A stretch of DNA of 64,000 nt from Gallionella sp. (GTDB lineage Bacteria > Pseudomonadota > Gammaproteobacteria > Burkholderiales > Gallionellaceae): assembly GCA_028710525.1 (NCBI GenBank), contig JAQTTY010000014.1, positions 1 to 64,000 of the forward strand. Direction: 5' to 3'. Shown in pieces: positions 25,033-58,610 of this stretch. Under the pieces are notes generated by a model, which ran no database searches, had not been told where the DNA came from, and saw only the letters and a list, made by a program, of their open reading frames with translations. A program made the position numbers and the translations under genes. The first letter of the stretch is position 1. The number at the start of each line of letters is the position of its first letter.

Positions 25033-25064
25033 AAAAAACCCGGATAGCTTAAGCTAAACCGGGT
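25033..25064 (-). terminator. Riboswitch-controlled intrinsic terminator
   Basis: On the minus strand ACCCGG (25059-25064) and CCGGGT (25038-25043) enclose the palindrome TAGCTTAAGCTA and are followed by six T residues (25033-25038). The 5' half, TTTAGCT (25052-25058), can instead pair with AGCTAAA of the upstream aptamer (25074-25080). Terminator and antiterminator are therefore mutually exclusive. Confidence 0.88.
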
Positions 25065-25066
25065 CT

Positions 25067-25122
25067 CCCCCGCTTTAGCTGTATTTGTAATGCGCCCGCA
25101 AGCTGTTCCTCAAATCGGCGCA
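25067..25122 (-). promoter_or_regulatory. SAM-II riboswitch aptamer upstream of paiB-like/metZ
   Basis: The minus strand matches the SAM-II aptamer element by element: P1 arm TGCGCC, then GATTT, a variable loop, TTGCG, P1 partner GGCGCA, then CAAAT and the 3' pseudoknot strand AGCTAAAGC. The known SAM-II order is GCGC(U)GAUUU..UUGCA..GCGCG..AAAU..AGCUAAA. SAM-II is an H-type pseudoknot that binds S-adenosylmethionine, mostly in Alphaproteobacteria. SAM binding would hold AGCTAAA in the pseudoknot and free the downstream terminator, switching the operon off. The methionine gene metZ is in the controlled unit. Confidence 0.9.
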
Positions 25123-25128
25123 GGTGCA

Positions 25129-25157
25129 AAGTAACATCGCCCTGTATTGTCCGTCAA
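25129..25157 (-). promoter_or_regulatory. Promoter of the riboswitch-controlled paiB-metZ operon
   Basis: On the minus strand TTGACG (25152-25157) and TTACTT (25129-25134) are separated by 17 bp, with a TG two bases before the -10 box. The expected start, near 25122, coincides with the first base of the SAM-II aptamer. The upstream rest of the purF-paiB gap (25158-25290) contains nothing I can identify. Confidence 0.65.
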
Positions 25158-45059: not shown

Positions 45060-45596
45060 ATGACACAAGCTGAAAATACCCCGCAAACCGAAGCACAGAC
45101 AGAAACGACCGGCGCTCAAACACCTGCCGACGTGATGCCCAGCATGGAAGAACAGCTACAGGCGGCCGAGCGCAAGGCGCAAGAACATTACGACGCTTGG
45201 ATGTACGCCAAGGCGGAAGGCGAGAACATCCGCCGTCGCGCTGCCGAAGATGTGAGCAAGGCGCAGAAGTTCGCGGTAGAACGTTTCTCCAACGAGATGC
45301 TGGCGGTGATGGATAGCCTGCAAGCGGCATTGGCGGTGGAGAACAGCACCATAGAAAACTTCAAGAGCGGCATGGAGTTGACCCAGAAACAACTGACCAA
45401 CGTGTTCGAGAAATTCAACATCACCGAGATCAACCCGGTTGGCGAGAAGCTGGATCCGCACAAACATCAGGCCATCAGCATGATAGACAGCGACCAAGCT
45501 GCTAACACCGTGGTTAGTGTCATGCAAAAAGGTTATGCGCTGAATGAGCGCGTCCTGCGCCCAGCTTTGGTACTGGTGAGCAAAGGCAAGAACTGA
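45060..45596 (+). CDS. grpE: Nucleotide exchange factor GrpE
   Basis: GrpE (178 residues) promotes ADP release from DnaK. The acidic N-terminus, long helix ([32 protein letters not shown]) and C-terminal beta domain with [19 protein letters not shown] are typical. It has a strong ribosome site and an exact sigma32 promoter. It is first of the chaperone set grpE-dnaK-dnaJ. Confidence 0.97.
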
Positions 45597-45599
45597 ACC

Positions 45600-45704
45600 A
45601 TCCCCTCCCCCATACAGGGGGAGGGCTAGGGTGGGGGTAGTAATGCGAGAGGTAACCACTCGTTTTCACCCCCATCCTAACCTTCCCGCTCAAAGGGTAA
45701 GGAA
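45600..45704. repeat. Palindromic GC-rich repeat, copy 1 (grpE-dnaK gap)
   Basis: About 105 bp. The left hairpin is CCCTCCCCC..GGGGGAGGG, then TAGGGTGGGGGTA; a middle part follows, then CACCCCCATCCTAACC and a weaker right hairpin (CTTCCC..GGGTAAGG). The outer halves are also complementary to each other. It is clearly related to the copy at 57724-57828, in the same orientation. It is intergenic here. Confidence 0.85.
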
Positions 45705-45752: not shown

Positions 45753-45807
45753 CTAGCGTAACAGCACAGACATTAGGCATTAACGACTTAACTTGAAAGG
45801 AAGCATC

Positions 45808-47733
45808 ATGGGAAAAATCATCGGTATCGACTTGGGCACGACGAACTCTTGCGTGGCCATCATGGAAAACGGCAAGACTAAGGTGATCGAGAACGCAGAA
45901 GGCGCGCGTACTACACCTTCTATCATCGCTTACATGGAAGACGGCGAAGTATTGGTAGGTGCGCCCGCCAAGCGTCAGGCTGTGACCAACCCTACCAACA
46001 CCCTGTACGGCGTGAAGCGTTTGATCGGTCGTAACTTCGACGAGAAGATGGTACAAAAAGACATCGGCATGGTGCCTTTCAAAATCGTCAAAGCTAAGAA
46101 CGGCGATGCATGGATCAAGGTGCGTGATAAAGAATTCTCTGCGCCAGAGATCTCTGCACAAGTACTGATGAAGATGAAGAAGACCGCCGAAGACTACTTG
46201 GGCGAGCCTGTCACCGAAGCCGTCATCACTGTTCCTGCTTACTTTAACGACGCACAGCGTCAAGCCACCAAAGACGCAGGCCGTATCGCTGGTCTGGACG
46301 TGAAGCGCATCATCAACGAGCCGACTGCAGCGGCCTTGGCATTCGGTATGGACAAGCAAGAAGGTGACCGCAAGATCGCCGTGTACGACTTGGGTGGCGG
46401 TACTTTCGATATCTCCATCATCGACATCGCCGAGTTGGATGGTGAGCACCAGTTCGAAGTGATGTCCACCAACGGTGACACCTTCTTGGGTGGTGAAGAC
46501 TTCGATATGCGTGTCATCGACTTCTTGGTTGAAGAGTTCCAAAAAGAAAGCGGCATCGACCTGCGCAAAGACGTGCTGGCCTTGCAACGCCTGAAAGACG
46601 CGGCAGAAAAGGCCAAGATCGAATTGTCTTCCGCACAACAGACAGAAGTGAATCTGCCTTACGTGACTGCTGATGCGACTGGTCCTAAGCACTTGGCGGT
46701 GAAGATCACTCGCGCCAAGTTGGAAAGCCTAGTTGACGACCTGATCGCTCGAACTATCGAGCCCTGCAAGATTGCAATGAAGGACGCAGGCGTTTCTGCT
46801 GCTGATATCGGCGATGTGATTTTGGTCGGTGGTCAGACTCGTATGCCTTTGGTACAAGAACGCGTTAAAGCCTTCTTTGGCAAAGAGCCACGTAAAGACG
46901 TGAACCCTGACGAAGCCGTTGCAGTCGGCGCTGCCATCCAAGGCGGCGTGTTGCAAGGTGAAGTTAAAGACGTGTTGCTGTTGGACGTAACGCCTTTGTC
47001 TCTGGGTATCGAAACCATGGGCAGCGTGATGACCAAGCTGATTAAGAAGAACACCACTATCCCTACCAAGGCATCGCAAGTGTTCTCTACAGCTGAAGAC
47101 AACCAAAGCGCCGTGACTATCCACGTGCTGCAAGGTGAACGCGAGATCGCTTCCGGCAACAAGAGCTTGGGCCAATTCAACCTGTCCGACATCCCGCCCT
47201 CACCACGCGGCATGCCGCAGATCGAAGTGTCCTTTAACATCGATGCGAACGGTATCTTGCACGTTTCGGCTAAAGATAAAGCGACTAACAAGGAAGCCAA
47301 CATCACCATCAAGGCGAGTTCCGGCTTGAGCGAAGAAGAAATTCAACGCATGGTGAACGATGCTGAAGCCAATGCTGAAGATGACCGCAAGGCAGTGGAA
47401 CTGGTGACTGCGCGCAACCAACTGGACGCACTGATCCACTCCACTAACAAGTCGATGAAAGAATACGGCGAACAACTGTCCGCTGATGAGAAGTCCGCTA
47501 TCGAAGCAGCAGTGAAAGAAGCAGAAGAAGTCGTGAAGGGTGATGACAAGGAAGCCATAGAAGCCAAAGCGGAAGCATTGGCGACTGCGGCACAGAAGCT
47601 GGGCGAGAAGATGTACGCCGCCGAGCAAGCTAAGTCTCAAGGTGCTGAAGGCGGCGCGCAACAGGCCGAGCCAGCCAAGCACGACGATAATGTCGTAGAT
47701 GCAGAGTTCACCGAAGTAAAAGACAAGAAGTAA
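45808..47733 (+). CDS. dnaK: Chaperone DnaK (Hsp70)
   Basis: DnaK, 641 residues from the ATG at 45808 ([17 protein letters not shown]), which has an AAAGGA site; an upstream in-frame ATG at 45793 lacks one. The ATPase domain (about 1-385, with [12 protein letters not shown]), linker [14 protein letters not shown], substrate domain and C-terminal tail [14 protein letters not shown] are all complete. Confidence 0.98.
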
Positions 47734-49571: not shown

Positions 49572-49692
49572 AAGTCCTTGCTGCACTTTGCAGCTAGGGA
49601 AGGACTACACACTGATCTCCTGAGCAACTAAGGAGATCGTTTCCAACGGCGTGAGGGAGGTTTTGGGCCGGACTAGGGAGAATTCCCGAGTC
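49572..49692 (-). promoter_or_regulatory. Structured leader / expression platform of the c-di-GMP riboswitch
   Basis: Between the aptamer and the hemerythrin ATG the minus strand can form three hairpins: GACTCGGGA/TCCCTAGTC (49671-49692), GATCTCCT/AGGAGATC (49614-49638, perfect 8 bp) and AGTCCTT-GCTGCA/TGCAGC-AAGGACT (49573-49606), the last followed by TTAACTTTT. The last one is terminator-like. Which one switches is not decided by sequence alone. Confidence 0.6.
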
Positions 49693-49772
49693 GCAGTCCC
49701 GCTACCATAGTTACCCTTAGGCCGGAGACTTTGCGTCCATACCTTTCAGTATGTTTGCCAAGTTGCCGGATG
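49690..49772 (-). promoter_or_regulatory. Cyclic di-GMP-I (GEMM) riboswitch aptamer
   Basis: On the minus strand GGCAAAC, the P2 hairpin ATAC-TGAAAG-GTAT with a GAAA tetraloop, GGACGCAAAG, then CTCCGGCCTAA and ATGGTAGCGGGA occur in the exact order and spacing of the GEMM-I consensus. The tetraloop receptor is intact. This class binds c-di-GMP. It sits 140 bp upstream of the bacteriohemerythrin start. Confidence 0.94.
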
Positions 49773-56749: not shown

Positions 56750-58054
56750 CTACCCGAGCACACGCACCATCGCGAAGCCGCCGCCTAGTGTTCTGAAATT
56801 GGTGGTCTGCCCCTGATAGAGTCGTGCCGCGACTAACTGGATATGGCCCTCATAGACATAGCAGCGCACATCGTATTTGAGTGGCTGCGGCTCGTCGTCC
56901 GCACCCAACACCATACGTTCACCCGGCGCTGCCAGACGCTGCGCCACATAGTCGGACTGCATGACTTCCTCGAAGACGCGCTTGGTCATCTTGTCACCGC
57001 GATACGCGCCCTTGCTACCGTAGCCGCTCACCGGCTTAAAGAACCATTGCTTGCGCTCCGTCCACCAGCTTTCCGCATCAGCACCATTCACCAACTGAGT
57101 CTGTGGCAATCCTGCTGACAATGCTGTGATGCTAGCGGACGACACACCTGCCGCCTGCAATGCTGCCGCATCACTGAGCACGACTAGATTGCGCTTGTCG
57201 GCATAACGCTGGTAATGCGCCGGATCGGGCGTAAGTACCACACGGTCTTGCTGATAGGCTCGCAGCAGATGTGGATAGGCTTGCAGTGAAAAATCGGTGA
57301 GGCGGTTGTAGAGCATATCTATCTTGTTTTCGGCCACATACAGACCGTCATCACGCGCTTGCAACTGCTCCGGTGACACGATGTGCGCAGCGATACCGGC
57401 GCGCTCGAATAGCGCTTGCACGAGGATAAATTCGGGATAGAGATATTGCGACTGCGGCTGCTCATCGACGATCGCGATATGACGCAAAGGCGCATCGCCG
57501 CGTGCTAACTGCCACTCCTTGCGGAACATCGCCAATAACACGCTATGCAGATCGTCATCCGCCGCTGCTTTGCCCGGCAGATTGCTCTGGCGTTGGCTGT
57601 CTAGCAACAGCGCATTGAGAAAAAGTCCGCCCGCATTGGTGTTGATCTCGATGAGATGCGCGCCCTCTTTATTGAGATGGAAATCGTAGCCGTAGCACAC
57701 GCCGTGTGCAGTGCTAATAACGACATCCCCTCCCCCATTTAGGGGGAGGGTTAGGGTGGGGGTAGAAATGCGACTATCACTTTGCTCCACCCCCATCCTA
57801 TCCTTCCCCCTAAGAGGGGGAAGGGACTGCAAAGCCACCACTTCTTCCACTGCAGCAATCACCGCCTGCATCTGCGCAAGTTGCGCGGTGGTGATATAGA
57901 GCGGTACATCAGCAAAAAGATGGCGATGTGTCTCAGACATCGCCTCTGTGAAAGTCTTACCTTGTGTTTTCAGGGCCTGTTCTAGTGCGGCCTTATCTAT
58001 CGGTGCAGCCAATATATTCAGTATCGCCGCACTACTCTCTTGCGTATCAACCAC
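56750..58054 (-). CDS. ATP-grasp-like protein with an in-frame palindromic repeat insertion
   Basis: About 434 residues. LIEINTNAGGLFLNALL (about 134) and WFFKPVSGYGSKGAYRGDK (about 350) suggest an ATP-grasp ligase fold; substrate and pathway are unknown. I chose the GTG at 58054, which has an AAGGA site 7 bp upstream; ATG codons at 58078 and 58216 lie further inside the preceding gene and lack one. Residues about 76-110 (QSLPPLRGKDRMGVEQ.. to ..LTLPLNGGGD) are encoded entirely by the ~105-bp GC-rich repeat and look foreign. The frame stays open through it. The gene may be functional or decaying. Confidence 0.6.
   Translation of the reverse strand: MVDTQESSAAILNILAAPIDKAALEQALKTQGKTFTEAMSETHRHLFADVPLYITTAQLAQMQAVIAAVEEVVALQSLPPLRGKDRMGVEQSDSRISTPTLTLPLNGGGDVVISTAHGVCYGYDFHLNKEGAHLIEINTNAGGLFLNALLLDSQRQSNLPGKAAADDDLHSVLLAMFRKEWQLARGDAPLRHIAIVDEQPQSQYLYPEFILVQALFERAGIAAHIVSPEQLQARDDGLYVAENKIDMLYNRLTDFSLQAYPHLLRAYQQDRVVLTPDPAHYQRYADKRNLVVLSDAAALQAAGVSSASITALSAGLPQTQLVNGADAESWWTERKQWFFKPVSGYGSKGAYRGDKMTKRVFEEVMQSDYVAQRLAAPGERMVLGADDEPQPLKYDVRCYVYEGHIQLVAARLYQGQTTNFRTLGGGFAMVRVLG
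57724..57828. repeat. Palindromic GC-rich repeat, copy 2 (inside a coding gene)
   Basis: About 105 bp: hairpin CCCTCCCCC-ATTTA-GGGGGAGGG, TTAGGGTGGGGGTA, a middle part, CCACCCCCATCCTATCC, and hairpin CTTCCCCC-TAAGA-GGGGGAAG. It matches copy 1 (45600-45704) along its length, with the middle diverged. Its length is a multiple of three, so the host reading frame is kept. Confidence 0.9.
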
Positions 58055-58610
58055 CCAGCAGTCCTTTCTTAAGATCATTTTGAACTGGCTTGTCACCCAA
58101 CCATATCTGCAACATCGCGCGATTGAATGCCGCACCGGCGATGGTGCCGTAGGCCTTGCCATTGACGCTGATCTGCGTCCCAGTCGCGGGCAGATAATCG
58201 AGATCGATAACGTCACCCGGTTTCACCTCGTGCACCGTATCAAAGATCTGGCGCATCTGCTTGAGCTGGCTAGTCAGCGCCGCTAATTCAGCGGGAGATT
58301 GGTTGCTCACGATCGCATCGTTGAAGGCGTTATAGAGCTTCTCGCTACCCAGCTCGTGCTTGATATGCAGCGCTAACCTATGCACATGCTCATCCGCCAT
58401 CACCGCCGCACCGTCGGTCTGTTTTTGCGTGAGATACAAGGCCGCGACATAGATCTTGAAGAAAAATTTAGTACGCAGACCCGCGCCATTGAATACCAGC
58501 TGCTGTCCATCCAACTGCACAGTGTCCGCCATCTTCACGCCAGCCAACTCTGCCGCAGCAACGTTCGCACTCAACAGCACACCTGCCAATATGCATACAA
58601 ATTTTTTCAT
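58047..58610 (-). CDS. Exported chalcone-isomerase-like protein
   Basis: 187 residues with a signal peptide (1-20, ending VAAA-E) and a chalcone-isomerase-like fold (LVFNGAGLRTKFFFKIYVAALYL). Bacterial members are periplasmic and not flavonoid enzymes; their role is unclear. Its stop overlaps the start of the ATP-grasp-like gene. No neighbour indicates a pathway. Confidence 0.88.
   Translation of the reverse strand: MKKFVCILAGVLLSANVAAAELAGVKMADTVQLDGQQLVFNGAGLRTKFFFKIYVAALYLTQKQTDGAAVMADEHVHRLALHIKHELGSEKLYNAFNDAIVSNQSPAELAALTSQLKQMRQIFDTVHEVKPGDVIDLDYLPATGTQISVNGKAYGTIAGAAFNRAMLQIWLGDKPVQNDLKKGLLGG

Follow-up and report, generated by a model that had tools for sequence, protein, structure and literature searches.

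The question raised by this locus is how a palindromic repeat with copies throughout a genome can lie inside a conserved protein-coding gene and leave its reading frame open. The window, i.e. the whole 64,000-nt stretch of Gallionella sp. DNA that was analysed, carries a 105-nt palindromic element at 57724..57828 (no strand assigned), whose in-frame reading on the minus strand is QSLPPLRGKDRMGVEQSDSRISTPTLTLPLNGGGDV. The host gene (56750..58078, minus strand) encodes a 442-aa protein that is ATP-grasp-like by a weak family match, and its open reading frame is uninterrupted at 57724-57828, in agreement with the first-pass annotation, which had described the element as an in-frame segment of this protein. 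That description holds, while the residue numbers given there (76-110) do not; if translation starts at the ATG at 58078, the insert comprises residues 84-119, within a length-variable loop preceding GVCYGYDFHLN. Upstream, a chalcone isomerase-like gene (PF16036; 58047..58610, minus strand) shares 32 nt with the start of the host gene, and crcB (PF02537; 56357..56740, minus strand) lies downstream. The host protein was matched in 66 of the 73 genus genomes examined, own included. Pfam matches among 29 family members were weak (ATP-grasp_3 in 12, best 4.3e-4; CP_ATPgrasp_2 in 6, best 3.5e-5), and searches for a solved relative returned one chance-level match by sequence (E 0.6) and none by profile.

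The element itself is the double hairpin of about 105 bp that had been proposed at 57724-57828, an imperfect palindrome with 41-nt arms (57726-57766 and 57786-57826) that are 83% complementary and with a predicted RNA fold at z = -6.8, equalled by 0 of 200 shuffles. Each half consists of a hairpin followed by a mirror-like third strand, so that two G/C-rich motifs stand head-on: the left half (57728..57762, plus strand) reads CCCTCCCCC-ATTTA-GGGGGAGGG-TTA-GGGTGGGGG, with TTA as its second loop, and the right half (57790..57824, minus strand) reads CCTTCCCCC-TCTTA-GGGGGAAGG-ATA-GGATGGGGG. This layout was compared with that of the TM/PIT class of intrastrand-triplex motifs, defined by three consecutive strands forming C-G*G / T-A*A,T triads with a stem of 6-15 nt and loops of 1-6 nt; by sequence, both halves have 9 of 9 purine-motif triads and loops of 5 and 3 nt. 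Shuffled left halves (n = 120) gave a mean of 3.0 triads and a maximum of 5, and an E. coli motif, taken from Table 1 of PMC4666352 and put through the same triad test, scored the same as the window halves. Given these full and equal scores, and the many similar genomic copies, some as inverted pairs (46 places, 24 full-length pairs aligned), that also characterise TM/PIT repeats, the element is a dispersed repeat of two PIT/TM-like, predicted intrastrand-triplex motifs placed head to head. At least 7 of 9 triads were found in 18 left and 19 right halves among the 24 full-length copies, the remainder having decayed to 3-6. A GTAG follows the left-half third strand in 15 of the 24 copies as judged by eye, positioned inside the dimer and not at its outer end; GTAG/CGTC REPs are defined by an unpaired GTAG or CGTC tetranucleotide at one palindrome end. 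An Rfam scan of the window at gathering thresholds found nothing at the element and two riboswitches elsewhere, one a c-di-GMP-I riboswitch above its gathering score (49689-49769, minus strand) and the other a SAM_alpha match (25054-25131, minus strand) that scores 39.1 bits, the cut-off being 36, although the host belongs to the Gallionellaceae and the name of the family refers to alphaproteobacteria.

Within the window, the 22-mer core of the element occurs four times at ≤3 mismatches, with 0 expected from 100 shuffles. The copy placed by the first-pass annotation in the grpE-dnaK gap was located at 45599-45697 (no strand assigned), is 80% identical to the window copy and is intergenic, lying after the end of a plus-strand ORF at 45060..45596 and before a plus-strand ORF at 45793..47733 (45793 being its first listed start), which we take from their translations to be grpE and dnaK, respectively. 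Across the 2.83 Mb genome (33 contigs) there are at least 58 BLAST matches to the element (40 of 48 candidates scored), and an 18-nt one-arm pattern has 43 matches at ≤2 mismatches, its reversed control having 0. The genome-wide search for copies that had been suggested at the outset resolved these, at E ≤1 and with halves included, into 46 clustered places within 41 loci, most of them intergenic. Thirteen places are in frame in 11 genes; most remaining copies have a neighbouring gene on one side or both no more than a few tens of bases away, and the copy at locus L024 is upstream of purH.

The 11 genes encode the ATP-grasp-like protein of the window, a formate-hydrogenlyase-type large subunit, an FtsX-like permease, an RlmN relative (two places), HemD, PepD, RecG, MetG, CusA (two places), NnrD and HsdR, the first CusA copy and the HsdR copy (2 of the 13 places) having been found by peptide search alone. 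A clear length excess over solved homologues was seen for HemD, PepD, RecG, the hydrogenase subunit, the RlmN relative at its C-terminal place and CusA at its second copy, while the net gain in MetG and NnrD is no more than 12-13 residues, with alignment gaps partly away from the insert. For the first CusA copy and HsdR the lengthening was read from Pfam spans (979 residues for the 942 positions of ACR_tran and 250 residues for the 196 positions of HSDR_N); the FtsX-like case is based on an open frame together with FtsX matches at the C-terminus, and for the N-terminal RlmN place the basis is an open frame. In the hydrogenase subunit the insert falls between the 30-kDa and 49-kDa parts, and in MetG it falls in a linker. 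The insert peptides are rich in proline and glycine (30% over 12 inserts) and mildly hydrophilic, a composition that suits loops. In PepD (L030 903-2657) there is additionally a repeat of the RPELVEG type described below, and a third repeat is nested inside the element; a nested in-frame repeat with a peptide like TTSHSTKxASGQVAGYL occurs both in this PepD and in the ATP-grasp loops of relatives (L035, L085).

Across the 24 copies, open frames are concentrated in one reading per orientation (+2 in 12 and -2 in 14, the others in 1-3), with five full-length intragenic copies using the -2 frame and the HsdR reading resembling +2. Because the intragenic copies were detected by way of open ORFs, the sample is biased towards in-frame cases, and the sole counter-check is a flank test of 24 distinct co-directional neighbour pairs, from which the co-directional loci L003, L024, L025, L028 and L071 and pairs of other orientation were left out. 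Among the 19 pairs named with Pfam, 17 have different families on the two sides and none is a gene split around the element; L007 and L013 each have one nameless side.

In the wider genus, where the named relatives are Gallionellaceae (Gallionella, Sideroxydans), the insert peptide was matched in 33 of 76 genomes. Ten peptide-match loci in relatives were inspected and seven were scanned with Pfam, which assigned a family to the host protein of each: two hybrid histidine kinases (with the insert between the REC and Hpt domains), RecG, an aminotransferase-fold enzyme, a UvrD-like helicase-nuclease, PurL (in genome G053) and a 4Fe-4S protein. The other three, outside the Pfam scan, appear to be short or spurious (L131, L137, L148). 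In genome G013, ten copies among the matches listed have the same E-value (9.5e-8), a frame of 50 aa and a single TGA, as would be seen if one variant had spread recently. Separately, GTAGGGGCGTATGGCAATACGCCC palindromes resembling GTAG-type REPs have 40, 45 and 29 matches in genomes G008, G017 and G043, and 0 in the genome of the window.

This distribution suggests that the element moves, and head-to-head pairs of short palindromes near gene ends resemble REP dimers, as would be expected of a classical REP/BIME mobilised by a RAYT transposase. The Y1_Tnp profile (PF01797) is present in 63 of the 76 genus genomes, including 30 of the 33 that bear the peptide, which would fit that origin. However, the profile has 0 matches in the genome of the window, with 5 of 14 control genomes positive in the same search, and 0 in genome G063 despite its 25 peptide matches, and its association with the element over the 76 genomes is not significant (30/33 versus 33/43, p = 0.13). 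A RAYT-driven REP is accordingly an unlikely identity for the element and was not adopted. Direct repeats flanking the 21 of the 24 copies whose ends are clear, though placed approximately, have a mean of 1.67 nt against 1.26 nt when re-paired, and 70 of 500 re-pairings are as high. With no Y1_Tnp in the genome and no excess of target duplication, transposition is unproven, and no mover was found. The copies might stem from template switching or replication slippage where the DNA is prone to form triplexes, since PMC4666352 ties the intrastrand triplex motif to local instability.

The loop that holds the window insert was aligned across 74 rows (30 protein-match loci, four named contigs and 40 further stretches), among which some are paralogues, one is a duplicate and five come from other families of the order; genomes G038, G056 and G070 and the named loci L061, L062, L067 and L068 were left out. 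The insert-bearing segment ranges from 9 to 76 aa (SD 13.7, n = 73), against an SD of 0-7.2 for the 12 other inter-anchor segments, and five orthologues have loops of 9 aa. Loops without the segment exist, and none of the 71 other orthologous loops carries the insert peptide; the first-pass annotation had named the same peptide in orthologues free of the DNA repeat as the outcome that would contradict an insertion. Its central claim, in-frame insertion of a dispersed palindrome, is thus borne out by orthologues lacking the segment together with the further in-frame copies. An empty site in a close strain was not found, and the insertion event is reconstructed from orthologues.

Other repeats occupy the same loop. 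After removal of the duplicate L118 and one empty-loop row, a repeat of one of five types is present in 22 of the 72 remaining orthologous loops, compared with a mean of 0.1 and a maximum of 1 for shuffled loops (20 rounds), the patterns having been derived from these same loops with six of the 22 members as founders. Two of the types, that of the window and the CTCTCCC type, are related, with a common layout and three loops that match both. The remaining 50 loops are without any tested type, L042 and loops of short near-tandem repeats being scored as no match. Every type has dispersed copies in one or more of its host genomes: the VIPAQAG type has 95 matches in G050 and 57 in G048, the CTCTCCC type 33 in G017 and 27 in G043, the RPELVEG type 23 in G072 and 19 in G071, and the GTAGGGGCG type 14 in G066, with 0 for every reversed control. 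Among the hosts that bear it in the loop, the CTCTCCC pattern ranges from 1 (G035, G058) and 2 (G007) to 36 matches (G057). On a tree of 70 rows (L106, L114, L118 and L121 dropped), the types require 15 changes over all groups against 20.5 with shuffled labels, a clustering which indicates that inheritance plays a part. The forced changes number at least seven for the CTCTCCC type, two for the VIPAQAG type and two for the RPELVEG type, some of which could be losses or recombination mimicking gains. Supported sister pairs carry different types (L046 with VIPAQAG and L082 with CTCTCCC; L050 with CTCTCCC and L059 with RPELVEG), and in the sister pair L037/L057 the CTCTCCC type is read in different frames. 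The ATP-grasp loop is therefore a hotspot and a recurrent target of several repeat types.

Six of the 74 rows, or five once the duplicate L118 is removed, have insert runs of at least 8 aa outside the main loop, and some of these runs resemble repeats. The ATP-grasp-like gene at L064 (Gallionella sp. GL140_2, G030:C266) has an extra 25 and 44 aa at two sites besides the main loop, the 44-aa stretch looking like a CTCTCCC repeat. The ATP-grasp loops of L054, L064, L083, L086, L087 and L093 resemble, by eye, short near-tandem repeats (GTGGTGAGTGG, GGATTGAGGATTC and similar) more than palindromes.

RecG, picked for having inserts at one place in both the genome of the window and G062, offers a second loop of this kind. 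It was matched in 67 of the 76 genomes, and the 30 loci compared are the top of the list from an insert-bearing query and hence a biased sample. In all 30 the loop is open, with a length of 8-67 aa, while the upstream segment is 92 aa in 30 of 30 and the downstream segment 111-132 aa in 29. Eleven of the 30 loops carry a repeat (window type in 5, RPELVEG type in 6), with 0 among shuffles. Four RecG loops (L161, L170, L171, L173) have in common, in part, a peptide SKVKQGG.E.ATQ...EEANAVSPMK lying outside all the patterns, which is perhaps a further repeat type or a trace of common ancestry.

Taken together, these observations are very probably explained by neutral insertion into tolerant loops, recurrent and from several repeat types, with copies surviving where they are in frame and open. 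A copy of the element would have entered a length-tolerant loop of the conserved ATP-grasp-like gene; with 105 nt equal to 35 codons and one commonly open frame per orientation, the gene would have stayed open and the predicted protein gained about 36 Pro/Gly-rich residues. Insertions of this sort recur within the Gallionellaceae and come from four or more repeat types seemingly unrelated in sequence. Copies that break genes would be removed by selection, so that tolerant loops such as those of the ATP-grasp-like protein and RecG would be refilled repeatedly.

That different repeats fill the same two loops in many species could also be expected if the insert were a selected, functional linker, with longer Pro/Gly-rich linkers tuning the enzyme or its partners. 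This seems improbable, as the sequence, length and repeat type of the ATP-grasp loop vary freely among orthologues and the 9-aa loops among them fit tolerance better than a common function. The arrival of several repeat types at one spot might alternatively reflect a preference of the element or its mover for the DNA at these loops, and not tolerance of the product; this is more doubtful again, given that the types sharing the spot are seemingly unrelated and that other window-type copies have neither an obvious common flank past the element ends nor excess duplication. That the insert is a harmless scar in a decaying host gene, whose protein is after all a predicted product, is scarcely credible in view of an ORF intact on both sides with its conserved residues kept, and of other insert-bearing hosts that include MetG, RecG, HemD and the PurL of G053. 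Neutral insertion into tolerant loops is therefore retained as the preferred reading.

Several known systems resemble the one described here. PMC10969869 describes RPEs, palindromes of about 150 bp in frame in unrelated genes, and PMC4224334 describes WPE-like in-frame stretches in addA, addB and priA; the likeness, a palindromic repeat in frame in unrelated conserved genes, extends to the present element. Compared by description, the differences are that the host belongs to the Gallionellaceae and is not an obligate intracellular alphaproteobacterium, that the repeat is a triplex-type pair, and that several types reuse one loop. Coxiella QMITE1/2 are short elements with inverted repeats, some copies of which form in-frame fusions with ORFs; again by description and within the portion of PMC5896051 available, they differ in that the in-frame cases are in hypothetical proteins or at a gene 3' end. 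REPs are reported within the ORFs of several bacteria, Opitutus, Thauera and Thioalkalivibrio among them; over half of these REPs come as dimers or groups and encode 20-30 residues, and different REPs occupy about the same recB site in two Xanthomonas species (PMC3733652). Those intragenic GTAG/CGTC REPs share with the present element a location within ORFs. They are of another element type, the GTAG-type being associated with a RAYT/TnpA_REP transposase for which the genome of the window has no PF01797 match, and the present case concerns one loop with several types over a genus, assessed with tree and length controls, with RecG as a second case. In structure the element is like the TM/PIT repeats of PMC4666352, with the same CCCTC..-loop-GGGAG..-TTA-GGGTG.. 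layout, 9-nt strands, a type A second loop and inverted pairs. However, the 23 copies in E. coli K-12 MG1655 are described there as always intergenic, whereas 13 places here are in frame inside genes.

In-frame REPs in free-living bacteria, Thauera included, are therefore already in print (PMC3733652), and the suggestion that a case in a betaproteobacterium would be notable is weakened as to novelty, the in-frame case itself being real. Among the titles and opening abstract lines listed by a literature search that reached few subscription journals, there was no report of in-frame repeats in Gallionellaceae, nor of a loop that different repeat types have in common throughout a genus. What is new is that several repeat types have repeatedly used one loop in this genus and that triplex-type motifs lie inside genes.

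Since several repeat types have recurrently targeted this loop, the finding extends beyond a single gene. More tentatively, a genus-wide process may be at work in the Gallionellaceae, by which repeats of several types, four or more of them unrelated in sequence, keep lengthening the same few loops of conserved enzymes, those of the ATP-grasp-like protein and RecG and probably others, possibly with adaptive as well as tolerated outcomes. If true, this would be a multi-type, repeat-driven process of protein lengthening outside the Rickettsiales. The family is also a free-living one in which to test the old question of whether new protein sequence arises from selfish palindromes: a single site offers many events that are apparently independent, with empty-loop, one-repeat and other-repeat orthologues as natural replicates. 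Triplex-type motifs can occur within genes, even though those of E. coli K-12 are described as intergenic without exception. For annotators and modellers, recurrent peptides such as PPLRGKxRMGVE..STPTLTLPLxGGG and PLPNPLPxAGEG are a warning, being repeat DNA and not domains. In this family, dispersed repeat DNA seems to have been repeatedly converted into extra protein sequence at tolerant spots.
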